From positions 310,001-374,000 of the forward strand of contig NZ_VCIA01000001.1 of the NCBI RefSeq assembly GCF_005887555.1: a DNA stretch of 64,000 bases. Reading direction: 5' to 3'. Source of the stretch: Lentibacillus cibarius. Its GTDB lineage: Bacteria; Bacillota; Bacilli; Bacillales; Amphibacillaceae. Position numbers and translations under genes: made by a program. A model generated the notes under the pieces. The model was given only the letters and a program-made list of their open reading frames with translations, had not been told where the DNA came from and made no database searches. This document shows positions 69 to 14,963 of the stretch, one piece after another (position 1 is the stretch's first letter; every line of letters begins with the position of its first letter).

Positions 69-2654
69 TTAGGAGGTTCCCATCAACTCTCTTTGTTTTT
101 CTTCCACCGTTGCGGTAGATGAATCAAACGCATCTAATAAATCTCGAAATACCGGATTAATATGAATAACCGCCGAACGTCCAAAGATATCCTGGAATAA
201 TGCATCCCCACGTCCAAGGTTTTTTAGCACATCAATATTTTCTTGCGTCTGTGGCAAGTTTAAATAATTTAACATCTCCTGGGCTTCTTCCGTTTTCCGT
301 AAGCCAAAACTGAATTTCATTCCCATGTTTGCCACGTCCTGCCCATGATCCGAAGCATTTTGCGAACCTTTTAAAAGCGTTGTATTATAAAATCGTCCCA
401 TTCGCACAATAAAGTCCATCAACTCCGAGCCAACAGCACTTTGTTCGATAGAACTAGCTTCATCCTGTAGGATAAATTTGTGTCGCATACGATCTTGATT
501 AAACATGTACTGTTTCGTAAAAGCTGTCAGCGAAATCATAATTGCCTCAGATATTTTATGTTGAGGCCGCATTTTTTTCGTTGTTTTACTTGGCAAATTG
601 AGATTCTGTACCATTAGTACTTGAATGGGGACATCAGGATGCAGTACTTTATATTGCTGTCCTACTTCCCCGAAGAGTAACTTCGCAAGCTGATTACGCC
701 GCAATGTTTCTAACATACCTTTTAATTTGTCAACAGCGTTAATACGTGCAGCATTCAGGTTTGCTGCATTATAAAGATTTTCTAAATACGTTATTACCGC
801 CCCTATACAAGGGTCTTCTTGTTTCGCCACCTGTTCTATTGCTTCACTTAAAATAGCGTATGCATCATCTTCAATATCCACATTTGTAAGATGTGTCAGA
901 ATGTCCATGCAGATATCCTTACCTTCCTCCAAATTAGTACTTGTTCGGAAAGGGTCCAACGAACCAGCGTCCTTTGCATCTGCCCCTATTTGCCAGACAG
1001 CAATATACTCTTCAGGAATATAAGGAAGTCCCTTTGTCCAATTTTTGCGGTCACCCTTTGGATCAATAACTAATCCCTGCGAACCAGTCAAAGTGGCCAA
1101 ATAGATAAATAGATTCATAAACAAAGATTTCCCTTTTCCGGTCATGCCTGCTACCATGACCGAGATAGAGTCAAACACATTATTGACATTTTCATACGCT
1201 TTGGCCGCAAGGTCCGGTTTAATAAAAACAGGCTTTTGAAATTGACGTGTATAGCCAATATAAAAACCACGGTTATCCCCGATATTCGTTGTAGCGCCAA
1301 ACATCATACCTGCTAAAACCGTTGGAGATACGTACATAGGAAAATCATTATTAAATTGTTTTGATCCCGGTATGGTTTCCATTAGTAAGTTGAGTTGTTC
1401 ACCATATGGAGAAACAATACTGACTCCAAATCGAGATAATTCATCCGTTAATTGCTCAACCCGTGTTTGCAATGTCCGTTTATCTTTTGCAATGACTTTA
1501 AATACAAAGGAACAACTATATCCCGGCTGCCCTGTCTGCTTAAAGTAATTTTCCATTTGCACAGCACCCTGTTCCGATTCAACAACGCTTTGATCGATGC
1601 TGTCCTGCCCTTTCGCAGCTTCTTTTCTTTGATCCTTATATTCCAATCGTGCATTACTCAATTTCTTTTGCACTAACCGATTAGGCTGGTGATGTGCTCG
1701 TATGGAAATAGTGACCGGAAAAGGCATTCGGGACTGCACATGATAAAGCCATTCGAAACCGGGATGACTACTGACGTCATTCATATCATTACAGACTAAA
1801 TATTGTGTATACAGCTCTTCGACTTCATGATTTCGTATTTTACTTAGCAGCAATGTTTTGGGGCCGACTTCATCAATATTCGCATTTTGCAGATCCATAA
1901 AGGCATTTTCTTTGGGACGGATAGCTTCATGATGGATATTATTGGAATCTATACCCTCAACTTTATCACCTGATGCAAACGCCTGTCGATATGTCACATC
2001 TTGATTCGTTGGAGAGATAGAATAGGTTTTTTCTGCCAAATAAATAAGTTCTCCCGTTGTGGCTGATTTTACCATAGAAGAAAAACCGTTAGCCATATTC
2101 GTTATTAATCCTTCTGCCTGTTTCTGATACGCCTCTATCACTTCCAAAGGAATATCATAAGGGTATAATCCAACTGCCCGGTAGACTGGTGAACGTAGAC
2201 CATCTAAAAAATTCTTCAACTGATAAAGCAATGTGTTCCCCATATTAGGTGATACATATCTATTTTTGGAAGGATCTAATTGAACTCCCAGATAATGAAT
2301 ATATTCACCTGACTCATTCTGAGAACGTTGTTTGTTCAAATGCTGATTCACCTGTTCCATAAAATGCTTTCCATTCTCTTTTAACGAATAATCCAGTCGC
2401 TGCATTTCCTGTATGGTTTGATTCACCACACCACTAATATTCTTAGGTGTGGGATCAATTATAAAGTGCAAGTCGTGCCCATTATTTGATAGATAACTTA
2501 ACTGATGCTGAAATGGCTTTACTTTATCATCAAAATCCAAGAAATCGTAACTGAAACCTTCAATTCGATAATAGGCCCATACAGTGTTATCGTGTGCAAA
2601 AACAAGATTATCTTCAATATGCCTAATGGGAAATTCTAAAATATTTGTCGGCAT
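69..2654 (-). CDS. VirB4-type conjugation ATPase (TcpF/ConE-like)
   Basis: Cytoplasmic ATPase that powers the mating-pair channel, 861 residues, a normal length for VirB4 proteins of Gram-positive elements. A Walker A motif GMTGKGKS lies near residue 500, followed by VIDPKGD. A Walker B-type segment with DEASS is near residue 730. The N-terminal half matches the less conserved TcpF/ConE region. The ATG is preceded by a good AGGAG site. The TcpE-family gene is directly upstream, 19 bases away, the same order as in Tn916/ICEBs1-type modules. A ribosome-binding site (AAAGGAG, complement of 3-9) marks a further gene starting just left of the window. The family is clear; the exact subfamily name is less so. 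Confidence 0.92.
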   Translation of the reverse strand: MPTNILEFPIRHIEDNLVFAHDNTVWAYYRIEGFSYDFLDFDDKVKPFQHQLSYLSNNGHDLHFIIDPTPKNISGVVNQTIQEMQRLDYSLKENGKHFMEQVNQHLNKQRSQNESGEYIHYLGVQLDPSKNRYVSPNMGNTLLYQLKNFLDGLRSPVYRAVGLYPYDIPLEVIEAYQKQAEGLITNMANGFSSMVKSATTGELIYLAEKTYSISPTNQDVTYRQAFASGDKVEGIDSNNIHHEAIRPKENAFMDLQNANIDEVGPKTLLLSKIRNHEVEELYTQYLVCNDMNDVSSHPGFEWLYHVQSRMPFPVTISIRAHHQPNRLVQKKLSNARLEYKDQRKEAAKGQDSIDQSVVESEQGAVQMENYFKQTGQPGYSCSFVFKVIAKDKRTLQTRVEQLTDELSRFGVSIVSPYGEQLNLLMETIPGSKQFNNDFPMYVSPTVLAGMMFGATTNIGDNRGFYIGYTRQFQKPVFIKPDLAAKAYENVNNVFDSISVMVAGMTGKGKSLFMNLFIYLATLTGSQGLVIDPKGDRKNWTKGLPYIPEEYIAVWQIGADAKDAGSLDPFRTSTNLEEGKDICMDILTHLTNVDIEDDAYAILSEAIEQVAKQEDPCIGAVITYLENLYNAANLNAARINAVDKLKGMLETLRRNQLAKLLFGEVGQQYKVLHPDVPIQVLMVQNLNLPSKTTKKMRPQHKISEAIMISLTAFTKQYMFNQDRMRHKFILQDEASSIEQSAVGSELMDFIVRMGRFYNTTLLKGSQNASDHGQDVANMGMKFSFGLRKTEEAQEMLNYLNLPQTQENIDVLKNLGRGDALFQDIFGRSAVIHINPVFRDLLDAFDSSTATVEEKQRELMGTS

Positions 2655-2673: not shown

Positions 2674-3138
2674 TTACTTATAAGTCACAAATCCTTTATA
2701 ACGATAGGTTGTAGGTTTAAAATGATGTATCTTAACACCATAGGTATAATGACTATGGAAGACATGCGTACTTTCTTTGGGTATTTTTCGTCCATGGACG
2801 TATGTTTTTCTGCTTAATTTTCGTACATGATAAAACAGAAAGGAACGGAAGAAATGGATTGGTGATCGTCCTTCTGTTCCGACATCTGTCAATAACCAAG
2901 CAATCGTAATAGGTAAAAGAAATAAAATACCATCGGGAATCCACCGAATGAATTGGCCTAAAACCGGTATTGCCAGCCAAATAACTTCTCCTATGCTAAA
3001 TACAAGTAAATAAAGCAGCCCTTTAAAAGGAATAGGTCTGCCCAATTTCAGGCCGAACAGCTGATAAATCTTACGATCAAATTTTAAAAAGTTATTTAAT
3101 ACATATAATGGGATACGCCTTTTTTGTTCATCCTGCAT
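2674..3138 (-). CDS. TcpE/ConD-family conjugation membrane protein
   Basis: 154 residues. Residues 35-80 form two hydrophobic segments around a short polar turn, flanked by basic N- and C-terminal parts rich in R, K and H. This is the layout of TcpE (pCW3) and ConD (ICEBs1), which sit in the membrane and recruit the VirB4-type ATPase. It lies between a TcpD-like protein and the VirB4 gene, as expected for this family. The start ATG has an AAAGGAGC site upstream. A strong hairpin occupies the spacer before it (3160-3189). Confidence 0.82.
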   Translation of the reverse strand: MQDEQKRRIPLYVLNNFLKFDRKIYQLFGLKLGRPIPFKGLLYLLVFSIGEVIWLAIPVLGQFIRWIPDGILFLLPITIAWLLTDVGTEGRSPIHFFRSFLFYHVRKLSRKTYVHGRKIPKESTHVFHSHYTYGVKIHHFKPTTYRYKGFVTYK

Positions 3139-3466: not shown

Positions 3467-4540
3467 TTATTCGGATGCTAGCTCTTTAATTGCTTGATCG
3501 GCTTTCAGATTTGATACAAGGTAGTGGTCTTGCTCCTTGGTGACGACTAACCTGTATACGGTATCAAATTGAATACTTGTTTCCGGGTCCTCCATCGTTA
3601 CGTCAGCAATGACAATAAACTTCGATTGTTTTTCTCCATGGAATACATCAGCACTTCCTACTTCCACGAAATTTAACGCTCCCTGTAATCCGTTTTGATG
3701 CTTCTCATCTGTCAAAATATAACTCAATCGGTCTTCTGAGTCTTTGGCATAACTAGTAAAGAAGGTGTCTAAAAAGTTTTTAATATTGGTCACTTCCTTA
3801 CTAGCTTTTGCCGCCTCTAAATCCTTTCGATAATTATTAGCTTCTTCGGTTACAGTCGTTGCTGAATCGACATTTGTAATAAATGGTAGATCATAAACAC
3901 CATAAGATGTTCCGTTATACGTAATTGGTACAGCAAAGAAATTGGCTACTTCTTTGGTTTCAGTTTTCGTTTTTGCTTTTTCCTTATCTTTCTTATTTTC
4001 GTTTTTTACTTGCACCTCTCGGCTCATTTTTGTCATTGTTTCAAAAATAATATGTGCTTTGTTTTCTGTTATTTTTTCTACGTTCTGCAGACTAACGTGC
4101 TGTACAGATGCATCCCATTTTAGACTGTCCTTAACCAATCCTGCTTGACTATCAAGTCCTTTAGCCAAAAAGTTGGAAAGCCGTTTTTCACGAACTTTCC
4201 AACTATCACGTTTCCAAGTGAAATAATTTTTGGTGAAGTCTTTAGCAAACTGAATGGCTTCCGGCTTTGTCGCAGGATTTGTCATTGGTTTCGGCTGGCT
4301 TTGTTTCACTTCAGCACCAGAGTTGATGTTTGACGTTATGTTCACAAACACAACTAAAAACATGAACGAAAATAACAGCCAAAATGTAATGACACCGAGC
4401 TTACGCATAAGATAACTTTTGGGACGCGCTGGTTTCTCTTTTTTAGGCTTTGTGCTGAAAAACACTTTCATTTTTTGCATAAAACGTTTTAATGCCTTGA
4501 TGTTTTCTTTATTCTCTTTTTTCTTTTGAATGTTTTTCAA
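3467..4540 (-). CDS. TcpC/ConB-family conjugation protein (VirB8-like)
   Basis: 357 residues. A lysine-rich cytoplasmic N-terminus (1-45) is followed by one membrane helix (about 48-70). The large extracytoplasmic part has the two-lobe NTF2-like arrangement of TcpC/ConB, the functional equivalent of VirB8 in Gram-positive channels. A low-complexity K/E segment near residues 175-200 falls within the first lobe. The start codon is TTG, chosen because GGAGG lies 8 bases upstream. It is followed by the TcpD-like, TcpE and VirB4 genes, as in related elements. Confidence 0.83.
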   Translation of the reverse strand: MKNIQKKKENKENIKALKRFMQKMKVFFSTKPKKEKPARPKSYLMRKLGVITFWLLFSFMFLVVFVNITSNINSGAEVKQSQPKPMTNPATKPEAIQFAKDFTKNYFTWKRDSWKVREKRLSNFLAKGLDSQAGLVKDSLKWDASVQHVSLQNVEKITENKAHIIFETMTKMSREVQVKNENKKDKEKAKTKTETKEVANFFAVPITYNGTSYGVYDLPFITNVDSATTVTEEANNYRKDLEAAKASKEVTNIKNFLDTFFTSYAKDSEDRLSYILTDEKHQNGLQGALNFVEVGSADVFHGEKQSKFIVIADVTMEDPETSIQFDTVYRLVVTKEQDHYLVSNLKADQAIKELASE

Positions 4541-4575: not shown

Positions 4576-4797
4576 TTATATTTTTTTACTGGAACCAAAT
4601 ACGATAAAAATGGCAATAATGATAAGAAAGGTAGTTACGGCCCCATACCGAACTAAAGCCATATCGTATAGACGTACAATGGCATCTTTAAACTCTTGCC
4701 ATAAAGGTTGAATAGCCGGAAACTCTTCCAAAATGATACTTCCGACAACCAAGAACAAAAATATACCTAAAAGCAGTCCAAGAAAAAAACGAATCAT
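4576..4797 (-). CDS. Small two-helix membrane protein of the transfer operon
   Basis: I do not recognise a family. 73 residues with hydrophobic helices at about 2-24 and 50-68, joined by an acidic/aromatic stretch. The start has a very good GGAGGTG site 5 bases upstream. It is the first gene after the internal terminator at 4868-4896 and sits 35 bases before the TcpC gene, so it probably belongs to the transfer channel set (inference from position). Confidence 0.6.
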   Translation of the reverse strand: MIRFFLGLLLGIFLFLVVGSIILEEFPAIQPLWQEFKDAIVRLYDMALVRYGAVTTFLIIIAIFIVFGSSKKI

Positions 4798-4867
4798 ATG
4801 TTCACCTCCCTCTCCATGAAATAACTAAAATTAAAGCTAAGACTTTGCACATTCCCCCTTTCAAGGC

Positions 4868-4896
4868 ATAAAAAATACCCTGCAGATGCCGCAGAG
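4868..4896 (-). terminator. Intrinsic terminator inside the element's main operon
   Basis: On the minus strand CTCTGC pairs with GCAGGG (one G-U) around a GGCATCT loop and is followed by TATTTTTTAT. It separates the partition genes from the transfer genes. An outer pair AGGCAT/ATGCCT (4863-4868 and 4907-4912) could enclose it. Because the genes on both sides run the same way, read-through or antitermination would control expression of the transfer genes. Confidence 0.65.
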
Positions 4897-4978
4897 CAAG
4901 TCCTTCATGCCTATTTTTCTTTACCAGTATATGTTTTGCTTTGACTGAAACCTTCTTTCACGAATAATCGACATTAGT

Positions 4979-5335
4979 TTAATCATCTTCCTGAAAACCA
5001 AATGAAGTAAGAAAAGCATTGGCAGTTTCATGCATGGTTTGTTCATTTACTTCATTGGAAGTACTTTCCTGACTACTTGCTTGCGACACATTACAATTAT
5101 CCAACTTCCGCAGCATCTCTTGCTGATTTTCTTTTAGTATTTCCATATCTTTCTTTAGAGAATCAATCATTTCTTGTTGTTCCAGTCCTTGTTGAGAACT
5201 ATTTACTGCAATACCTAACAGCTTTCGTATACCTTCACTTCGCTGATTGGCAGGTAGTTTTTCCAGATATTCATAAATTACTTGATCATCACTGGTTAAA
5301 CGAAAACTATACCGTTTTTTCCAATTTGTATGCAT
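4979..5335 (-). CDS. ParR-like partition adaptor
   Basis: 118 residues. It starts 3 bases after the parM-like stop, so the two are almost certainly translated together. The N-terminus (RYSFRLTSDDQVIYEYLEKL) resembles a ribbon-helix-helix DNA-binding domain. Residues 50-80 look like a coiled coil and the acidic C-terminal tail ends in FGFQEDD. Small RHH proteins encoded next to actin-like ParM bind the centromere site and cap the filament. Sequence alone would be weak evidence; the gene pair makes the call. Confidence 0.72.
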   Translation of the reverse strand: MHTNWKKRYSFRLTSDDQVIYEYLEKLPANQRSEGIRKLLGIAVNSSQQGLEQQEMIDSLKKDMEILKENQQEMLRKLDNCNVSQASSQESTSNEVNEQTMHETANAFLTSFGFQEDD

Positions 5336-5338
5336 ACA

Positions 5339-6391
5339 CTAACCCATCTTTTTGTCTCGCTTCTGATTGGTGATGGACCGTCCAAGCCGAAGGTAACCGA
5401 TGGTATTGGCAAACTGACTTTCCGTTATACGTTTTAAACGATGATCAAAGTGGGGCTGGACAAATGACTCGAACAAATTACCACCGCCACCTGCCAGAAA
5501 AATAGCGTCGAACAGATCGCTTTCTTCTGCCCAGACACTTTTTAGCCGATCGGCAATATTCGTTGCTATTGATTCCTTACTTTTATAGATGGCTTCTGCA
5601 AAATCAATACGTTTTCTCTTGTAGGTTAAAAACTCATTCTTTAAGATTCGACTGATATGGAACTCATTCAGATCGGCACCTCCTGATTGAGCTTTAAACA
5701 CTTGCCTAATGTCGCGATGCAAATTAATAACGCCTTCATCCACCGTTCCCGATAATTTAGCATGCGGTACGAAAGAACCGTTTTTTTGCATTTCGACTAC
5801 AACAAAATCGGTTGTTCGAAAACCAATATCCATTAACGCAAGAAAATTTCCCTGCTCCATTAAATGCGGATACGTATATTTCCCTTCATGATTTAGGAGA
5901 GCTGAAAAAATTGCTGATGCGCCCTGTGGAAACACCATCGCCAGATCAATATTCAGACGTTTTTCCTGGCCTTTAAATGGACCAGTATCCCATTGCATAA
6001 TTGGCTGCATTCCCAGTATTGCCTGCCTAAATTCCTTTGCCTGTGACTGATAAAAGTCCAATGGCAACCCTGTGGAAACCTGTACATGTTCATCATCTGT
6101 AACCAACTGAACAGCTACATTTAATAATACCTGCGTATATACATGAGTAAATCTTTCCTGATCAAATATACGGGAAACGGAACGTGATTCCTTGGCCAAA
6201 TCACCGACAAAGTAATCTTCTCCTTTGAAATGAACATGTATATTTTTTAAATTATTCGGTTCCTCCCCCATAACACTGGTAAGGTTTCGATGATATCCTT
6301 TCCCTACTAATGATGGAAACACAATTTGTTTTCCGGAAGATGACATAGCCTTTACATATCCATAACCCAAATCAACTGCGACATGCTCCAT
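5339..6391 (-). CDS. parM: ParM/StbA-family actin-like plasmid partition protein
   Basis: 350 residues, the usual length for ParM relatives. The phosphate-1 motif VDLGYGYVKA is at residues 6-15, the phosphate-2 region MDIGFRTTDFVVV near 190, and the adenosine-binding FLAGGGGNLF near 300. The family forms ATP-driven filaments that push plasmid copies apart. The start has AAAGGAGAG upstream. The ParR-like gene follows immediately. A centromere site should lie close by, but I see no convincing repeat array in the 115-base upstream gap (6392-6506). A segregation system makes most sense if the element exists for a time as an extrachromosomal multi-copy form (inference). Confidence 0.85.
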   Translation of the reverse strand: MEHVAVDLGYGYVKAMSSSGKQIVFPSLVGKGYHRNLTSVMGEEPNNLKNIHVHFKGEDYFVGDLAKESRSVSRIFDQERFTHVYTQVLLNVAVQLVTDDEHVQVSTGLPLDFYQSQAKEFRQAILGMQPIMQWDTGPFKGQEKRLNIDLAMVFPQGASAIFSALLNHEGKYTYPHLMEQGNFLALMDIGFRTTDFVVVEMQKNGSFVPHAKLSGTVDEGVINLHRDIRQVFKAQSGGADLNEFHISRILKNEFLTYKRKRIDFAEAIYKSKESIATNIADRLKSVWAEESDLFDAIFLAGGGGNLFESFVQPHFDHRLKRITESQFANTIGYLRLGRSITNQKRDKKMG

Positions 6392-6506: not shown

Positions 6507-6956
6507 TTATATGTTCGTGATCATTTCTCTCCCTAAATAAACCAGTAACAACAGTGCCGTGCAGCGATCTAACAGGTGGAACGTCTTTTGTCTAACGTTG
6601 AACCCGATTGCTTTTGGGACTGGATAGAAAAACTGCACTTGCCCGGTAAGCATGTCCCCTGCAATATGGGCCAACAAACCAACACCTGCTGATAACCATA
6701 CCCACTCACTTGTAAGAGGGTACAATACTAAAACGATTAATACAGAAAATAATAGCGAATGTGTTATCGTCCGATGACCAAACATTTTATTGATCAAAAA
6801 CGATAACGGGAACACGATTTTTCCAAACTTTGATTTATGCTCATCCAGATCTGGAATAATACCTGCTATGCCGCCTACCACTGCTGCCCGCCAGTCCCCA
6901 CCTGTAACAACATAACCTGCAGCTATTCCAGATAATAGATGCGTCCTCCACTCCAT
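6507..6956 (-). CDS. YdjM-family membrane-bound metal-dependent hydrolase-like protein
   Basis: About 149 residues. The family signature is clear: H6 in EWRTHLLSG, IIPDLDEHKS, GHRTITHS and HIAGDMLTG supply conserved His and Asp residues, and four hydrophobic helices span the rest. E. coli YdjM is a LexA-controlled inner-membrane protein of unknown chemistry, and phage or plasmid copies are common. I prefer the second ATG because a GGGGA site lies 6 bases before it. It lies upstream of parM in the same direction; what it does for the element is unknown. Confidence 0.75.
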   Translation of the reverse strand: MEWRTHLLSGIAAGYVVTGGDWRAAVVGGIAGIIPDLDEHKSKFGKIVFPLSFLINKMFGHRTITHSLLFSVLIVLVLYPLTSEWVWLSAGVGLLAHIAGDMLTGQVQFFYPVPKAIGFNVRQKTFHLLDRCTALLLLVYLGREMITNI

Positions 6957-6974
6957 GGTCATTCCCCACTCTAT

Positions 6975-7588: not shown

Positions 7589-7747
7589 GGGTGTGGTTTT
7601 TTGACCACACATGTGTTGTTTTTTTGCCACACCCCCAAACTATAAATACCGGAAATGTCAAGGTGTGATTTGATACCACAGCTACCTTTTATAACACAGC
7701 TAACTCCCGCTGCATCAATATTCAAAGGTGTGGTTTTATATCACACC
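7589..7747. repeat. Cluster of GTGTGGT / ACCACAC inverted repeats (candidate iterons)
   Basis: Four imperfect inverted repeats lie within 160 bases: GTGTGGT-N6-ACCACAC (7591-7610), GTGTTGT...GCCACAC (7613-7632), GTGTGAT...ACCACA (7664-7680) and GGTGTGGT-N5-ATCACACC (7728-7748). The gap of about 440 bases (7302-7740) holds no convincing gene. The last repeat overlaps the stop of the Rep-like gene. Repeats of this kind beside a winged-helix Rep are typical of plasmid origins, but operator sites are also possible. I judge the 85-residue frame crossing them (7468-7725, minus) to be chance. Confidence 0.65.
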
Positions 7748-8400
7748 CTTTCATTTCGCTTTAATTGTAAATACGTTTTACGCCGATACAAGCGGCCAAA
7801 CTCGTGTCCATTTTTCAACCATAGTTTCCAGGCTAGATACACTTTTTTGCGTTCTAATATATCAAATTCCATCACTAATCTGGCCAATGTCGCATTAATG
7901 CGGTTACGATCTCCTGCATAAATAATTTCCGGATTCATAAACAATGGACGCTGGGATACATTTCGTTTATGTGCTTTTATTTCCTGCGCATTCACAAACT
8001 CAAATAACATTCCTTTAGCAAGAAGCTGGGATATCGTCTTACTTGTGGCTGAACGCTCTCGATTTAAATAACGTGCTATTTCCGAAATACTCATAAATTC
8101 ATTAGTTTCGCGATTAATAATGGCATTGGAATGAAATTGCACTAATGGCATAAGTGACAGCAACAATCCCAGCTCGCTATTGGTTAGATGCTTACTCTGG
8201 ATGACGGTATCCAAATTCTCCTGTATTGCCTGACAAAATAGTGCTTTATTTTTCTGTTTTAATTTGTAAAGGCCGTATCCCTGTTGGTTAGCTTTTGTTT
8301 CCTGCTGGGTTACCTCACTTAAATCAACCGCTTTTTGCATGCTAGATGATCGTGCTTTACCTTCAGCCTCGCTGAGCGATTTTCTAAAATTTCCTGTCAT
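7741..8400 (-). CDS. Winged-helix replication-initiator-like protein
   Basis: 219 residues from the ATG at 8400, which has AAAGGA 8-9 bases upstream; a longer TTG start (8427) lacks one. The middle section (residues 85-150) is a winged-helix domain with FMSISEIARYLNRERSATSK as recognition helix, and the basic C-terminus ends RLYRRKTYLQLKRNERV. It resembles MarR-fold and RepL-type Firmicute plasmid replication proteins. Repeats cluster at its 3' end, and a RecD2-like helicase gene is 36 bases upstream. A transcription regulator is the alternative. Function as an initiator is inferred from context. Confidence 0.55.
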   Translation of the reverse strand: MTGNFRKSLSEAEGKARSSSMQKAVDLSEVTQQETKANQQGYGLYKLKQKNKALFCQAIQENLDTVIQSKHLTNSELGLLLSLMPLVQFHSNAIINRETNEFMSISEIARYLNRERSATSKTISQLLAKGMLFEFVNAQEIKAHKRNVSQRPLFMNPEIIYAGDRNRINATLARLVMEFDILERKKVYLAWKLWLKNGHEFGRLYRRKTYLQLKRNERV

Positions 8401-8436
8401 GATCTTTTTTCCTTTCGGAATAAGCAACGCTCTGAT

Positions 8437-10659
8437 TCAAACGTTGCCACATTCCCGTATGTCAGCTTCCCGTTGACTCGGCTTATATGAATTCGTGTAT
8501 TTGTTTATTCGTTCAGCGAGTTTGCTGTTGCGTTTAATAATTTGGTTATTTGCAATAGCTGTATTTAAGGCTTTTTTTGTTCCAATAAACACCAATTTTT
8601 CTGTTGCACGTGTCATAGCAGTATATAATAAGTTTCTTTCCAACATCATATAATGACTTATCGTAGCAGGAATAAGCACAATCGGTGCCTCACCGCCCTG
8701 TGCTTTATGGATCGTAATAGCATAGCCCAGATTCAATTCTTTTGTCTCTGTTTTGGTATATGTGATTTCTTTACCAAAGTAGTCAATTTCCATAATGTCA
8801 ATAACGTTTCCATCATCATCTGTTTTTTGCCTAAATCCGGTAATAACACCCGTATCGCCATTAAAAATTTGCTTCTCATAATTATTTTTCACCTGAATAA
8901 CTTTATCCCCAAGACGGAAAAGGCTCTTACCTATTTTCCATTCTTGTTTCATTACGTCAGATGGATTAAGCTTTTCTCGAAGCATTTCATTTAAAATTTC
9001 TGTGCCAACCGGACCTTTTTTCATCGGACTGAGAACTAGAATATCTGATAGATCATAACCTAATTCTTGAAAACGACTCGCACTTCGTACAAGTAACGCA
9101 GCAATTTTCTTTGGATATTGCTGAACCAGAAAATAGAAATCGTCTTTTTCTTTATCAAAGACAATTGACTTGCCCTGATTAACGCGGTGAGCATTTTTGA
9201 TAATTTGACTTTCTTGTGCTTGTCGAAATACCTCAGTCAGCTCTATTGTTGGCAGTCCGGCTTGAATCATATCACGCAAAACATTCCCCGGACTGACGGA
9301 TGGTAATTGGTCAATGTCTCCCACAAATAACACTTTTGTTTGGTCATTAAGAGCCTGTATCAGATGACTGGCTACTTTAACATCCACCATAGACATCTCA
9401 TCCACGATTAATAGGTTGCATGGCAATGGGTTATCCGGATGATACTCCGGCCATTCACCCTGCCGATAACCGATCAGCCTATGAATTGTTGACGCATCCT
9501 GTCCAGCCACTTGTGATAACTTTCTGCTTGCTCTACTTGTAGGTGCTGCAAGGCGTATGATATGCTTGGGATACATTTCCTTATAAATATCTATCATGGC
9601 CCGTACTACGGTTGTTTTCCCAGTACCGGGCCCACCTGTCAGTATAAGGAGCTGTTCATCAAATAATTGTTGAATAGCTTCCCGCTGTTTTTCGCCGAGA
9701 ATCATTTTCTTTCTTCTTTGATACCAATCGATACATTTTTTCACAGTAGGCATGCCTTGCCCATTTCGAAAACGTCTCATTTTGGAGAGTTTTCGGCCTA
9801 ATTGTTGCTCATGGTTATGCAGGAACTTTGGGAATATACAACCGCCCTCGTTGACAATCATTTTTTCTTCTGTACACATTAAGCTATCTTCCAGCTCATT
9901 CATGGTGACCATCTCAGATGACGTGACATTATGGTTCAATGCCTTTTTCGTTTCTTCCAGCAATTCCTGTTGAGATATATACGTATGTCCAGATTCAAAG
10001 CATTGTTTTTGCAGTACATACTGCAGACATGCTTCAATACGATAACTTGATATCGGCATAATTCCCATGCGTTTGGCGATCTCATCTGCTTTCAAAAAGC
10101 CAACCAAATTCAGCTCAATCAATTTATACGGGTTTCGTTTAATGGTTTCGATGGTATTCGAACCATATTCCTTATAGGCCCGTAAAGCCATATTGGCGGT
10201 TATACCATAGGTGAGCAATTCGGATACAACCTTCTGTACCCCGAAAGTATCCATCACACTATCCACAATCTTTTTGGCCCGCTTCTTCCCTATGCCTTTT
10301 ATTTTTAAGAGACAGAATTCACGTTCTTTTGCTATAACGTCCAACGTCTGCTTACCAAACGTCTGAACAATCTCCCCAGCCTGCTTTTTTCCACATCCCT
10401 TTATAATCGGTGATGAAAGAAACGCAAGAATCTGTTCTTCGGTCTGTGGAATCGGACGTTGCCAACTCTCCACATCAAACTGCCTTCCGTACGTTGAGTG
10501 TGTTTCCCAAACACCCCAGACTTCCACTGTCTCTCCTTTTTCTACTCCATATATATTGCCCTTTATTTTCATTCGTTGTTCATTGGATTGCATCATGGCA
10601 ATCAGAAAATCGTCATTTCTATATAGCACTTCGGTAATGGTGCCTTTTATTAGAATCAT
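8437..10659 (-). CDS. RecD2-like SF1B DNA helicase
   Basis: 740 residues, close to RecD2 proteins. An N-terminal OB-like region is followed by helix-hairpin-helix repeats (KIKGIGKKRAKKI near 125). The helicase core has Walker A GGPGTGKTT near 338, Walker B LLIVDEMSMVD near 425 and a UvrD-like C-terminus with GYAITIHKAQG near 650. It unwinds DNA 5'-3'. Its ATG overlaps the upstream stop by 4 bases (ATGA), so translation is coupled to the NusG-like gene. It probably assists element replication or strand processing; the chromosomal recD2 normally lies elsewhere. Confidence 0.85.
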   Translation of the reverse strand: MILIKGTITEVLYRNDDFLIAMMQSNEQRMKIKGNIYGVEKGETVEVWGVWETHSTYGRQFDVESWQRPIPQTEEQILAFLSSPIIKGCGKKQAGEIVQTFGKQTLDVIAKEREFCLLKIKGIGKKRAKKIVDSVMDTFGVQKVVSELLTYGITANMALRAYKEYGSNTIETIKRNPYKLIELNLVGFLKADEIAKRMGIMPISSYRIEACLQYVLQKQCFESGHTYISQQELLEETKKALNHNVTSSEMVTMNELEDSLMCTEEKMIVNEGGCIFPKFLHNHEQQLGRKLSKMRRFRNGQGMPTVKKCIDWYQRRKKMILGEKQREAIQQLFDEQLLILTGGPGTGKTTVVRAMIDIYKEMYPKHIIRLAAPTSRASRKLSQVAGQDASTIHRLIGYRQGEWPEYHPDNPLPCNLLIVDEMSMVDVKVASHLIQALNDQTKVLFVGDIDQLPSVSPGNVLRDMIQAGLPTIELTEVFRQAQESQIIKNAHRVNQGKSIVFDKEKDDFYFLVQQYPKKIAALLVRSASRFQELGYDLSDILVLSPMKKGPVGTEILNEMLREKLNPSDVMKQEWKIGKSLFRLGDKVIQVKNNYEKQIFNGDTGVITGFRQKTDDDGNVIDIMEIDYFGKEITYTKTETKELNLGYAITIHKAQGGEAPIVLIPATISHYMMLERNLLYTAMTRATEKLVFIGTKKALNTAIANNQIIKRNSKLAERINKYTNSYKPSQREADIRECGNV

Positions 10660-11558
10660 TCCAAAACCACTTCATGCTTCTGAATCCATCGTCGTAAACG
10701 ATGAATAAAATCAGAAGAAGAATATTTGGCTGGGACGGCACCTTTGGCTTCTTGATATATGGCATAGAAAAGTGAAACAGGCATCGTAACAGTTTTTCTT
10801 TTATTTTTAACCCATGCCTTAATCCGTTCAATTATTGGATAAGACGATGGTTTCAAGTCGTTTATTTCTTGTTCCAAATCTGTATCCATGTCATCCATTG
10901 TACGTAACAGTTCTTTTTCTCTTTCCGTACCTACACATTCATTTGCTTCATGAAGAAGATTCTCTTCTTTCTTTTTGGACTCCTGATAACTTAGGATTTC
11001 ATCAAACTGTAATTCTACTTCAGCTGACATAGCTACCTCTTTTAAAAAGGCACTGACTTCCTGCTCAGGAATATTCATACGACTTGGAATCCCTGATACT
11101 TTCGGAATCGAGACCATCATATGATATAAATGGCTCGGCAAATAATGAAAATTATTATCCAGTTCTAATAAGATATACCCTGGGAGTACACTGCTAATTT
11201 TCTTGGAGTCATTTCGGATATTTTTTAATTTCGATGTTATTGCTTTAATTTGCTCCCGGTACTCTTCTTTTATATTTATGGATTTGGAATCATGATGGTC
11301 TTGTATGTGTTCATATGCTACACGCAAATTACTTAAGCTGACTTGCAGTCGTTGAGAGTATAGATGATCCGATATGTCTGAGGATGTTAATTCATGGGGA
11401 TGTAGTTGATCAGTTTTTGCACTCACTATCTCAGTATAAGTTTCCATTGCATAAATTGATTGAACACCTTGATATCCAGTTCGGGATAATAATTCCGTCA
11501 TCATTTCCTTTACTTCTATTTCGGAACCAGTACGTACCTGAATTGCAAAATAAGACAT
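10656..11558 (-). CDS. NusG-family (NGN-domain) transcription elongation paralogue
   Basis: 300 residues from the ATG at 11558, which has GAGGTG upstream. The N-terminus YFAIQVRTGSE matches the first strand and helix of a NusG NGN domain. The domain resumes with LPGYILLEL (125-133) and a SIPKVSGIPSR...IPEQEV segment near 150-168, the same order as in NusG. Between them is an insertion of about 70 residues with coiled-coil character. I see no KOW domain in the basic C-terminal third. Specialised NusG paralogues (RfaH, LoaP, ActX) act on long operons. This gene is first in the minus-strand run, overlaps the helicase gene by 4 bases, and an intrinsic terminator lies further down, which fits an operon-specific antiterminator (inference). 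Confidence 0.75.
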   Translation of the reverse strand: MSYFAIQVRTGSEIEVKEMMTELLSRTGYQGVQSIYAMETYTEIVSAKTDQLHPHELTSSDISDHLYSQRLQVSLSNLRVAYEHIQDHHDSKSINIKEEYREQIKAITSKLKNIRNDSKKISSVLPGYILLELDNNFHYLPSHLYHMMVSIPKVSGIPSRMNIPEQEVSAFLKEVAMSAEVELQFDEILSYQESKKKEENLLHEANECVGTEREKELLRTMDDMDTDLEQEINDLKPSSYPIIERIKAWVKNKRKTVTMPVSLFYAIYQEAKGAVPAKYSSSDFIHRLRRWIQKHEVVLE

Positions 11559-11665
11559 TACACTCACCTCATTTCTTCGTTACCTCATCCAAATGTTTTT
11601 TGGGAGTTTCCGTTAGCTCTTTAACCAATACGCAGTTATCCCTTATACACTTAAAACTTAAAGCC

Positions 11666-11854
11666 CTAAATACTCATAAGAGTTCCATTGGCTGGCTTCC
11701 GAATAACCTGTTTTGGCGATTGACCAGGATGTACGTTTAGCTTCATCTTCTCTCTTCTTTGTTCTAATATTCGCGGAATAGATGTCTTCATGAAGAAATG
11801 TTTCATTTCTTCCATTGTTTGTTCACTTATATTGGGTTGAGTTATTTCTTTCAA
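11666..11854 (-). CDS. 62-residue hypothetical protein in the control region
   Basis: No family recognised. The TTG start is preceded by a very strong GGGAGGAG site at 8 bases, so it is very likely translated. The protein is basic and helical at the N-terminus (MEEMKHFFMKTSIPRILEQRREK) with a Pro/Gly-rich end. It lies between the XRE gene and the NusG-like gene, directly after a repressor-type operator (11872-11886). A regulatory role such as an antirepressor is possible but not shown. Confidence 0.55.
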   Translation of the reverse strand: MKEITQPNISEQTMEEMKHFFMKTSIPRILEQRREKMKLNVHPGQSPKQVIRKPANGTLMSI

Positions 11855-11866
11855 TTTTCTCCTCCC

Positions 11867-12091
11867 TTAACTAGATTTTAATTCTACTAGTGTTCCAAAA
11901 AAAATATAATCAATCGGAAATTTATAAACTTCTTGGATTTTTCTTTGCTGATTCGCCGTAAGATCACCAGGATATTTTTCCCACTTAACCAATGTACTGT
12001 GGGAAATCCCAAGCTTTTTGCACGCCTGTTCAATAGTCAATCCAGCATTAACCCTAGCTGCTTTTAATGTGATCTGTGGCATCTGCTGCAT
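11867..12091 (-). CDS. XRE-family helix-turn-helix protein
   Basis: 74 residues: a single Cro/cI-type domain with the pattern LTIEQACKKLGISHSTLVKWEK at residues 18-39. The start ATG has AGGAGG upstream. It is transcribed away from the S24-type repressor across a shared operator region, as the Cro or excision-side gene is in many phages and ICEs. It may act as the Cro-like partner in the switch. It is transcribed toward the transfer operon and could drive or gate it. Confidence 0.78.
   Translation of the reverse strand: MQQMPQITLKAARVNAGLTIEQACKKLGISHSTLVKWEKYPGDLTANQQRKIQEVYKFPIDYIFFGTLVELKSS
11872..11886. promoter_or_regulatory. Operator-like site at the 3' end of the XRE gene
   Basis: TAGATTTTAATTCTA differs by one base from the palindrome repeated at 12123-12167. 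It overlaps the last codons of the XRE gene and lies just before the 62-residue gene, about 250 bases from the main operators. The spacing would allow repressor looping. Confidence 0.5.
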
Positions 12092-12122
12092 CTTGTTACC
12101 TCCTTTCTGTTTTCTACAATAC

Positions 12123-12209
12123 TAGAATTTAATTCTATAGTAAATGCGACTTTAGAATTAAATTCTACTTTTATTGCTAAAACGTTTGAAACAGTAGAAT
12201 TAAATGATA
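12123..12209. promoter_or_regulatory. Divergent control region with three repressor operators
   Basis: Two perfect 15-base palindromes, TAGAATTTAATTCTA (12123-12137) and TAGAATTAAATTCTA (12153-12167), are 30 bases apart. A third, degenerate copy TAGAATTAAATGATA is at 12195-12209. They fill the spacer between the divergent XRE and S24-repressor genes. This is the classic lysogeny-switch arrangement, and the likely ligands are the two adjacent HTH proteins. Confidence 0.8.
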
Positions 12210-12242
12210 GAATAACATTAAACGGAGGGGGGGTGAACTTAT

Positions 12243-12869
12243 ATGAGTGAAATGGAGCGAATAATATCTGAAAACATTAAAACATTATTGAGGAAATACA
12301 ATGTAACCCAAAGTGATCTTAGCAAAATTGCAGGTGTATCAGAATCGACGGTTGGTAAATGGATACTACAAAAGTCAACACCACGAATGGGTGCCGTACA
12401 AAAGATAGCGGATCATTTCAAATTGCCCAAGAGCTACATCTTAAATGAAAAACAGCCGGAAAACTTATATGAAATTAATAAGGAGTTTTCATATGTTCCA
12501 GTTTTAGGAACAATTGCTTGTGGTGATCCAATCTATGTAGAAGAAAACTTTGAAGAATACCGCACTGAACCAAAACAAAATTTACCAATTGGAAACCTTT
12601 ATTACTTAAGAGCAAAAGGCGATTCAATGGAGCCAACCATTCCAAGTGGTTCGATTGTATTAATTCGAGAGCAAAACGATGTAGAATTAAATGAGATTGC
12701 AGCGGTTCTTGTAAATGGAGACACAGAAGCAACCTTAAAAAGAATTTCAAAACAAAATGGAACTGTTTTTCTAATGCCCGACAACCCAAAGCATCATCCA
12801 ATTATTGTTGATGAATCAAATCCGGCTAAAATAATAGGAAAAGCAATTCGTTACACACAGGATTTATAA
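12243..12869 (+). CDS. cI/LexA-like repressor with S24 self-cleavage domain
   Basis: 208 residues. The N-terminal HTH (TQSDLSKIAGVSESTVGKW near 20-40) is joined to an S24 peptidase domain. The cleavage-site region IACGDPI is near residue 92, the catalytic serine lies in GDSMEPTI near 125, and the lysine in ATLKRI near 162. Such repressors hold the element silent and cleave themselves when RecA is activated by DNA damage. A GGAGGGGG site precedes the ATG. The gene is followed by a terminator and then the recombinase gene on the same strand. Confidence 0.9.
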   Translation: MSEMERIISENIKTLLRKYNVTQSDLSKIAGVSESTVGKWILQKSTPRMGAVQKIADHFKLPKSYILNEKQPENLYEINKEFSYVPVLGTIACGDPIYVEENFEEYRTEPKQNLPIGNLYYLRAKGDSMEPTIPSGSIVLIREQNDVELNEIAAVLVNGDTEATLKRISKQNGTVFLMPDNPKHHPIIVDESNPAKIIGKAIRYTQDL

Positions 12870-12918: not shown

Positions 12919-12940
12919 AATTTAAAACGAGGTGATAACA

Positions 12941-14344
12941 ATGATAGCAATTTATTTAAGAGTGTCTACACTAGAACAAGTAAAAGATGGCTACTCTATA
13001 GATGCCCAACGCGAACGATTAGTAGCTTTTTGCACCGCTCAAGGTTGGAATGACTACAGATTTTATGTTGACCAAGGTGTATCAGCAAAAGACACCGAAC
13101 GACCTGAATTAAAACAAATGTTCAAGGATATTAAAAAAGGTAAAATATCTATGATTCTTGTGTATCGATTAGACCGCTTTACTAGAAGGGTTATTGATCT
13201 CCATGAAATGCTAGAAGAAATGGAAAAATATAATTGTAAGTTTAAATCAGCAACGGAACCTTACGACACGACAACAGCGATGGGAAGAATGTTTATTACA
13301 ATTGTTGCTGCACTTGCCCAATGGGAAAACGAAAACCTTTCCGAACGTATTAAAATGGCTTTAGAGGAAAAGGTCTCAGGTGGTGAACGTGTGGGGGGTG
13401 TACCATACGGATTTGATATGACAGAGGATAGAAAGCTAATTAAAAATGATAAGGCACCGATTGTACTAGATATGATTAATAAAATTAAGTCTGGTATGTC
13501 TGCGATGGCACTAGCTGATTTTTTAAATAAAACAAATAACGATAAACCAGTATGGAGAGCACAAACTGTATTACGAATCCTTAAAAACCCTGCTCTTTAC
13601 GGTGCTACTAGATGGAATGATAAAGTCTACGAAAACACCCATGAAGGAATTATAAGCAAGGATGAATTTATGAAGTTGCAGCTCATATTGAACGATCGAA
13701 CCCAACACCGTAGACGAGATGTTACGAACACGTATATATTTCAAGGTGTCATAGCTTGTCCTAGCTGTGGTCATCCCCTATCCGTTAATCGGTATATACG
13801 AAAACGGAAAGATGGATCTGAACATCAATTTGCTATGTATCGTTGCCAACCTTGTGAAAAAGAAAAGAAATTTACTAAAAGTATAAATGAACATAAAATA
13901 ATTGATGCTCTTTATGACTACATGAGAAACGTAAATATAGATAACATCGAAACCATTGAAGATACCAGCGAGTCAATTTATACGGATCAACTCAATCAAA
14001 TTGAAAAGAAAAGGGAAAAATATCAGAGGGCCTGGGCATCGGATTTAATATCAGACGACGAATTTAAAAAATTAATGGATGAAACCAAGGAAACGTTTGA
14101 GTACTTAAAAAAGAAAGTCAATGAATACGAATACCCTGTTGTTGTAGATAAGGAAGCATTGAAGCAGATTGTGTTTACATTCAACGATAATTTTAGACTG
14201 CTTACTCTTGATGAAAAAAGAGCGTTTGTCTCTACATTTATCCGTAAAATCGAGATTCAAGTTATACCGCAACCACCTAAAAGACCAGATAAATCCAAGC
14301 GTGGCCTCTATTCAATAGAGATTACAAACGTCGACTTTTATTGA
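12941..14344 (+). CDS. int: Large serine recombinase (element integrase)
   Basis: 467 residues from the ATG at 12941; the GAGGTG that includes an upstream GTG is better read as its ribosome-binding site. The resolvase domain carries the nucleophile in LRVSTLEQ and the motif YRLDRFTR near 75. A recombinase domain follows. A zinc ribbon has CPSC near 270 and CQPC near 295, and a coiled coil spans about 350-415. This is the layout of phage-type large serine integrases, which cut at a 2-base core and normally need a directionality factor for excision. It lies at the element's right end, pointing into comGA. Confidence 0.93.
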   Translation: MIAIYLRVSTLEQVKDGYSIDAQRERLVAFCTAQGWNDYRFYVDQGVSAKDTERPELKQMFKDIKKGKISMILVYRLDRFTRRVIDLHEMLEEMEKYNCKFKSATEPYDTTTAMGRMFITIVAALAQWENENLSERIKMALEEKVSGGERVGGVPYGFDMTEDRKLIKNDKAPIVLDMINKIKSGMSAMALADFLNKTNNDKPVWRAQTVLRILKNPALYGATRWNDKVYENTHEGIISKDEFMKLQLILNDRTQHRRRDVTNTYIFQGVIACPSCGHPLSVNRYIRKRKDGSEHQFAMYRCQPCEKEKKFTKSINEHKIIDALYDYMRNVNIDNIETIEDTSESIYTDQLNQIEKKREKYQRAWASDLISDDEFKKLMDETKETFEYLKKKVNEYEYPVVVDKEALKQIVFTFNDNFRLLTLDEKRAFVSTFIRKIEIQVIPQPPKRPDKSKRGLYSIEITNVDFY

Positions 14345-14396
14345 TTGTTATAGTTGTATTTACATAACGAGCCCAACAGGAAGTGGCAAAACAACG
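14345..14396. other. Right element-chromosome junction (attR) in comGA
   Basis: Element DNA gives way here to comGA coding sequence. The frame reads CIYITSPTGSGKTTTLYT, where ComGA proteins normally have a glycine before PTGSGKT. The exchange point therefore probably lies within or just before the codons for this Walker A motif (about 14364-14380). The exact core cannot be fixed without the left junction. Confidence 0.6.
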
Positions 14397-14963
14397 ACAT
14401 TATATACGCTACTGCAATCGATTCTTGAGGAAAATTCCTTTCAAACCATTACACTTGAGGACCCAGTTGAAAAGGACATTGACGATATCCTACAAGTACA
14501 AGTAAATGAAAAAGCGGGTATTACGTATCAAACAGGGCTAAAGGCTGCTCTTCGGCACGATCCTGATATTATTATGATTGGAGAAATCAGGGATCGATTC
14601 ACAGCACAGTTTGCATTTGATGCTTCACTAACAGGTCACCTTGTACTGAGTACACTACATGCAGGAAATGCTCAAGGTACTATTCAGCGCTTATTGGAAA
14701 TGGGAATAACCAATACTGACATGAAACAGTCATTAATTGCAGTAGCTGCACAGCAACTGATCCCGGTTAGTACCAATCACCAAACCACGAGGCGTGCTGC
14801 CATTCTGGAAATGTTGGATGGCACTACGCTTGAAAATGTTTTAGACAGTGGAGGTCTACAGTCGACGGACCACTTTCACACTTTTGATCACTTACGAAAG
14901 AAGGCTTTTGCACATGGATTTATTTCGGATAAAACGTTTTGGGCTTTCGGCAGCCAAACGTAA
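14364..14963 (+). pseudogene. comGA: 3' part of comGA, cut off by the integrated element
   Basis: The remaining roughly 199 codons start inside the Walker A motif (PTGSGKTT) and contain the Asp box (TLEDPVEKD), Walker B region (IIMIGEIRD) and His box (GHLVLSTLHAG) of a type II/IV secretion ATPase. ComGA powers assembly of the competence pseudopilus. The N-terminal half should lie beyond the left end of the element. The frame is open to its natural stop, so precise excision could restore the gene. There is no start or promoter immediately upstream, so it is not expected to make protein while the element is in place. Confidence 0.88.

Follow-up and report, generated by a model that had tools for sequence, protein, structure and literature searches.

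A NusG-like protein with no detectable KOW domain as a candidate antiterminator of a conjugative-type transfer operon in Lentibacillus cibarius

In the literature we searched, the antitermination described for Gram-positive conjugation is RNA-based and comprises conAn, which has a protein helper, and canT. The conjugation operon of pLS20 is long, holds many internal terminators and has conAn at its start; conAn is described as antiterminating by RNA, together with a protein factor (PMC8955417). canT is described as a processive antitermination system of the integrative/conjugative element Tn916 that needs no other Tn916 gene (PMC11658703). Among proteins, LoaP is a specialised Gram-positive NusG paralogue of long operons with internal intrinsic terminators; its C-terminal domain shares in RNA contacts, and its described targets are biosynthetic clusters (PMC12691694). 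RfaH and ActX, also NusG paralogues, have links to conjugation operons (PMC7593976, PMC7819879), and resident plasmid NusG paralogues have been proposed as tra operon antiterminators (PMC7593976). Here we describe a NusG-like gene, with product P0001, in a Tcp-type integrative/conjugative element of Lentibacillus cibarius, a halophilic relative of Bacillus. It lies in a stretch of 64,000 nucleotides, referred to as the window (C1:310001-374000 of the host genome); coordinates without a prefix are window positions, and relatives are cited by our own handles. P0001 is probably a processive antiterminator that the element encodes to serve its own transfer operon.

Our search of open-licence PMC literature turned up no account of a NusG paralogue belonging to conjugative elements of Gram-positive bacteria. 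This fits an earlier note on the same DNA, which had held that such elements are not widely known to carry one; yet NCBI records already label the two plasmid-borne members (from Lysinibacillus capsici and Brevibacillus marinus) "NusG family protein", and conAn and canT were known.

The NusG-like protein and its family

P0001 belongs to the NusG/Spt5 superfamily by its NGN domain, whose fold was recovered by predicted structure as well as by profile match. The Pfam NusG profile covers residues 103-171 (29.2 bits against a cut-off of 22.2), and the Spt5-NGN profile covers residues 2-45 at a sub-cut-off score. By these predictions the NGN domain is split in two by an insert (Table 1), and in the predicted structure this helical insert sits where NusG has its beta-hairpin. 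A chance open reading frame (ORF) is ruled out by 23 aligned relatives and the NGN fold. The KOW domain carries most known NusG partner contacts. A profile search found none at E<=1 in P0001 or nine relatives, and P0001 departs from the canonical NusG architecture of a C-terminal KOW, its own C-terminal region modelling as helical and strand-free with moderate confidence. Modelled alone (pLDDT 67.7, pTM 0.33), that region gave a best Foldseek E of 3.6, which is no match, and at such quality the unmatched model is no evidence for a new fold. The earlier note had proposed a NusG-family protein with an insert and no detected KOW, encoded near the start of the transfer operon of a conjugative-type element. 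Profile, predicted fold and gene context bear this out, with structure prediction against NusG NGN and hidden Markov model search both giving NGN.

Comparison with known proteins shows both likeness and difference. P0001 shares the NGN fold and the GxE / GY / P-V signature with housekeeping NusG, but it has a helical region of ~120 aa in KOW's place in addition to the helical NGN insert, and it is 21% identical to the host NusG stretch. The Pfam NusG profile finds two places in the 3.66-Mb host genome, the housekeeping-type NusG at C1:2034050 and the NusG-like gene. In Thermotoga and Aquifex, an extra domain lies within a housekeeping NusG that retains KOW. P0001 resembles these proteins (2xhc, 1m1g) in having an extra domain in the NGN region, but its insert is a predicted helical hairpin and KOW was not found. 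LoaP membership was rejected, as the NCBIfam LoaP profile scores 20.1 bits against a cut-off of 125; in 900 nt taken as the leader, no UNCG hairpin was seen. Homology to ConAn1 was also rejected: the pLS20 protein that we take to be ConAn1, picked by position, has no Pfam match and reaches only E 0.072 against P0001 in BLASTP.

The aligned NusG-like proteins (n=24, all Bacilli) include 16 that bear the insert and eight compact ones. Matches were found in 7 of 159 genomes at family level (E<=1e-3), at least 5 of 397 at order level and at least 12 of 398 at class level (profile A3, E<=1e-4), the host genome included each time; the order- and class-level counts are lower bounds, with few candidates scored per genome. 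One order-level match (G474, L014) falls in a subtilisin-like ORF and was dropped. Named hosts are Lentibacillus, Oceanobacillus (2), Virgibacillus, Kroppenstedtia and Domibacillus (3), and G052 is of the same genus as the host genome. Seven of nine scanned relatives exceed the Pfam NusG cut-off, with compact L013 and L015 below it. The C-terminal region can be aligned in 22 of the 24 proteins, with one invariant proline and one phenylalanine in at least 90%. P0001 has the stretches LLHEAN and KAWVKNKRKTVTMPVSLF here, whose conservation among relatives varies; LLHxAN and KAFIKxKRxTxxxPxxLF are the majority consensus, worn in the Domibacillus members and L015. The G096 protein ends after NGN, and that of pFN9A has a short tail only. 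Searches of viral contigs with profile A3 and of phage records with P0001 gave no relative. A phylum-level scan flagged 38 of 398 genomes: besides the host's own, 36 flagged frames (175-241 aa, E 4.8e-7 or weaker) are most likely housekeeping NusG, and a 248-aa frame in G1232 (L085, C3:453103-453771; E 2.0e-16) could be a compact member from another class. Each of two compact genes (L071:14170-14556, L076:2834-3223) is preceded by a gene that matches sigma-70 region 4 weakly, short of the Pfam cut-off.

Terminator-like sites in transfer operons with and without the gene

The NusG-like gene is the third ORF of a co-directional leftward run of ~25 kb that ends near C1:297,219, which corrects the earlier note, where it was the first gene of an 11-kb run. 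Terminator-like sites, defined as a hairpin plus U-tract with fold energy <= -8 kcal/mol, a loop <= 10 and >=5 T in 7, are frequent between the genes of such operons. In 13 operons, gaps were counted between the NusG-like gene and the most distal transfer gene that could be recognised; in G894 and G726 no such gene could be, and their counts run to the stretch end. These 123 intergenic gaps held 48 sense versus 11 antisense sites, while 20 dinucleotide shuffles of these gaps gave a mean of 3.15 sense sites and a maximum of 8. The whole stretches at the 13 loci, some of which extend past the transfer genes, held 138 sense versus 65 antisense sites.

In close relatives, these internal terminator patterns are conserved in position. 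A site stands directly before TcpD in 6 of 11 loci with a recognised TcpD (own, G043, G052, G151, G072 and G758) and is lacking there in G388, pFN9A, G096, G783 and G799. Another lies between the genes for a lipoprotein and TM743, a large membrane protein, in five of six loci (own, G043, G052, G151 and G072; not G388). Stems at the TcpD site read CTCTGC/GCAGGG (own), CTCTGTC/GACAGAG (G043, G052) and CTCTGC/GCAGAG (G151), each followed by TATTTT; the host and these three close relatives keep hairpin and U-tract with differing stem bases. The hairpins of G072 and G758 at this site are unrelated. The host's own TcpD site (4876-4898) recurs in its second copy of the operon. Separately, the interval between this terminator and TcpD contains a 16-codon ORF, MCKVLALILVISWRGR (window 4802-4852, minus strand), that has a G-rich ribosome-site-like sequence, and by eye short ORFs apparently occupy the same spot in relatives.

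Operons without the gene provide a natural control. Five plasmid Tcp operons whose TcpF is 50-52% identical were fetched out of 217 records that match TcpF; P0001 has no tblastn hit in their records, although such a search might overlook a distant relative. The genes for transfer lie tightly packed in these operons (gaps of -8 to 44 nt), which hold 12 sense versus 16 antisense sites overall, four of them at gene edges and all four in two near-identical plasmids; L139 covers part of the operon, and L136 was measured as far as the gene before its intron-type insertion. The NusG-like gene is likewise absent from the 14-kb contig of G113 (TcpF 46%), which is packed except for one 253-nt gap. A TcpF relative (E<=1e-60) occurs in 31 genomes of the 159-genome family set. 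The seven with full-length TcpF of >=53% identity are exactly the seven with the NusG-like gene; TcpF occurs without it in G113 and a degenerate G022 locus, and the remaining 22 of the 31 have only TcpF of <=31% identity.

Across relatives, a TcpF/VirB4-type ATPase is present at 17 of 24 loci (own, G043, G052, G151, G072, G388, DomRob, DomInd225, G783, G799, G758, G096, pFN9A, G759, G560, G181 and G466, the last by a weak profile match alone). Small ORFs aside, the gene order from the NusG-like gene to TcpF is retained in G043 and G052, and it recurs with losses or additions in G151, G072, G096, G783, G799 and G758. TcpF/VirB4 was not seen in the fetched stretches of G894, G726, G539, G566 and G605, the G605 locus having T2SSE/T2SSF genes. 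The G067 and G613 contigs end before the TcpF position, and G067 has a 74% TcpF on another contig.

Proposed antitermination and its alternatives

The proposed antitermination would begin with relief of the S24-type repressor, upon which a divergent promoter near 12.1-12.2 kb would be transcribed leftward and the NusG-like protein produced early. Its NGN domain would dock on elongating RNA polymerase where NusG normally binds, at the beta' clamp helices and beta gate loop, and displace host NusG, with the insert possibly acting where it faces upstream DNA and the C-terminal region perhaps contributing as well. Polymerase carrying the protein would then read through intrinsic terminators spaced over the 25-kb transfer operon, while transcription that enters from outside or starts at spurious internal promoters would, without it, end at the first terminator. 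Recruitment to this operon could occur by cis loading at an early short leader or by mass action once the protein is made. The "dedicated antitermination system" suggested in the earlier note is a candidate with comparative backing, with terminators in most operons that carry the gene and few in five sister operons that do not.

We suggest a wider proposal only tentatively and would not put it at even chances: KOW-less NusG paralogues of conjugative elements could be a further Gram-positive antitermination type besides LoaP, EAR, conAn and canT. In this type, the helical NGN insert and new C-terminal region would replace the RNA hairpin, KOW contacts and ribosome link, and the protein would co-evolve with terminators inside the transfer operon, restricting the operon's expression to polymerase bound by the factor of the element itself. 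If true, an NGN module with other attachments can suffice for processive read-through of intrinsic terminators, with KOW not needed. Transfer operons that are related but differ in having the gene and in having terminators form a comparison set, which allows a direct test of whether antiterminators are what permits mobile elements to keep stop signals in their own operons.

Several observations weigh against antitermination by P0001. Confidence in its model is moderate (65.7), and a protein without KOW has no known Rho, NusE or ribosome contact, so the standard NusG-type antitermination routes are partly missing. pFN9A has the NusG-like gene yet a packed operon with one gap terminator, G388 has no terminator in its four gaps, and no transfer gene was present in the fetched stretches of G894, G726, G539 and G566. 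The host's own ribosomal-protein region has five sense sites and one antisense site in 33 gaps, which leaves an excess over ordinary DNA of only ~2.6-fold per gap and 2.2-fold per base. Ordinary DNA, with real operon ends included, also holds some terminator-like sites, and the plasmid operons without the gene are the stronger control. A recruitment signal did not emerge either. Fifteen leaders of insert-bearing members were searched by expectation-maximisation and set against six shuffles. The motifs of widths 10 and 14 that scored above the shuffles were T-runs, lying in part at least within coding sequence, and a weak pattern of width 20 scored little higher than the shuffles (63.1 versus 55.0-61.7). 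LoaP-type UNCG hairpins numbered one in 23 leaders versus 1.47 expected in shuffles, with none in the host's own 900-nt leader, whose extent is uncertain. The shared leader motif that the earlier note had suggested looking for near 11560-11665 was not found by this simple motif search. The same general search brought out no clear common element that might act as the ops-type DNA element recruiting RfaH does, although no search aimed at ops was made.

Gene context raises an alternative that we consider unlikely, namely that P0001 is a transcription-replication coupler whose NGN ties RNA polymerase to co-translated RecD2 (or to a repair or replication step of the circularised element), antitermination not being its main job. 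RecD2 lies downstream in 17 of 23 loci with visible downstream genes, as the next gene in 16 and the next but one in G605. Among the 12 members that have both the insert and RecD2, ten (all but G096 and G894) show an ATGA stop/start overlap (window 10656-10660 in the host), which suggests coupled translation of the two genes. However, six members lack RecD2 there (G388, DomRob and DomInd225 of Domibacillus, pFN9A, G181 and G466), and coupling leaves the internal terminators unexplained.

It is quite improbable that an RNA-based system like conAn2, canT or EAR antiterminates here, with the NusG-like protein aiding processivity in an accessory role, as ConAn1 would suggest by analogy. conAn and canT are RNA antiterminators described in Gram-positive conjugative elements (PMC8955417, PMC11658703), but the window holds only six tRNAs at Rfam gathering thresholds (no conAn2 model was among those scanned). 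The motif search gave no conserved leader, although a rapidly diverging RNA could still be present, and P0001 has no significant similarity to the presumed ConAn1. Very improbable is a brake, in which a KOW-less dominant-negative NusG would displace NusG/NusA and lower host or element transcription: KOW loss could mean loss of known partner contacts, and early expression would be typical of regulators, but the gene lies inside the operon to be shut down, where downstream terminator-like sites would be fatal for transfer.

The operon, its element and the surrounding island

Features around the NusG-like gene are listed in Table 1. Small ORFs are also present between the genes for the 228-aa and YdjM-type proteins. 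Beyond the window, the run continues with genes for a large membrane protein, an M23/SLT lytic enzyme, Replic_Relax, VirD4 and an S1-domain protein; the gene for this S1 RNA-binding-domain protein (L025:7936-8799, minus strand) lies close to the far end of the transfer operon. By its sequence, the element is predicted to be of the Tcp-type integrative/conjugative kind, with VirB4, TcpC, TcpE, VirD4, a relaxase/Replic_Relax, a recombinase and att-like ends.

Table 1. Positions of the NusG-like gene, its parts and neighbouring features in the window
Feature	Position	Strand	Remark
NusG-like gene, 300 aa, P0001	10656..11558	-	ORF 10656-11567 also offers an upstream GTG start
NGN domain, first half, residues 1-43	11430..11558	-	profile and predicted fold
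NGN insert, residues 44-120	11199..11429	-	predicted helical hairpin 59-85 / 91-117; absent in compact relatives
NGN domain, second half, residues 121-177, VLPGYILLEL...IPKVSGIPS	11028..11198	-	profile and predicted fold
C-terminal region, residues 178-300	10659..11027	-	predicted all helical; KOW not detected
Small HTH_3 protein	11867..12091	-	first ORF of predicted operon
62-aa ORF	11666..11854	-	5' of NusG-like gene; no Pfam family
RecD2-type SF1B helicase	8437..10659	-	start overlaps NusG-like stop (ATGA)
228-aa protein	7741..8427	-	weak winged-helix similarity below Pfam cut-offs; conserved near RecD2
YdjM-type membrane protein	6507..6962	-	
ParM/ALP-type actin-like protein	5339..6391	-	
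ParR-like small protein	4979..5335	-	named by position; weak family matches only
Intrinsic-terminator-like hairpin and U-tract	4876..4898	-	between ParR-like and TcpD-position genes; conserved in relatives
TcpD-position membrane protein	4576..4797	-	no Pfam match
TcpC	3467..4540	-	
TcpE	2674..3138	-	
TcpF / VirB4-type ATPase	69..2654	-	
Divergent HTH_3 and Peptidase_S24 (CI/LexA-like) repressor	12243..12869	+	faces operon
Divergent intergenic region	12092..12242	.	several operator-like TAGAATTnAATTCTA palindromes; weak promoter match 12190-12162, minus strand, 9/12
Large serine recombinase	12932..14344	+	right end of element; adjoins comGA 3' half

The same island contains a second copy of the transfer operon (L022 and L030, C1:195000-224900), with TcpF 95% identical. 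In this copy the NusG-like gene is only a C-terminal fragment and RecD2 is split, and the copy might depend in trans on the intact one. The island, of ~182 kb, looks like an insertion in the competence gene comGA, which is split at its Walker A motif into halves 182 kb apart (window 14334-14765 and C1:141469-141882). At comGA, beside the serine recombinase, the ends of the inserted DNA show by eye a 16-bp inverted repeat, GTTATGTAAATACAAC / GTTGTATTTACATAAC. In Lentibacillus sp. CBA3610, the recombinase gene of a related element (L018:14380-16212) lies immediately 5' of a comGC-like pilin ORF, named by eye, which would make it a second competence-operon insertion.

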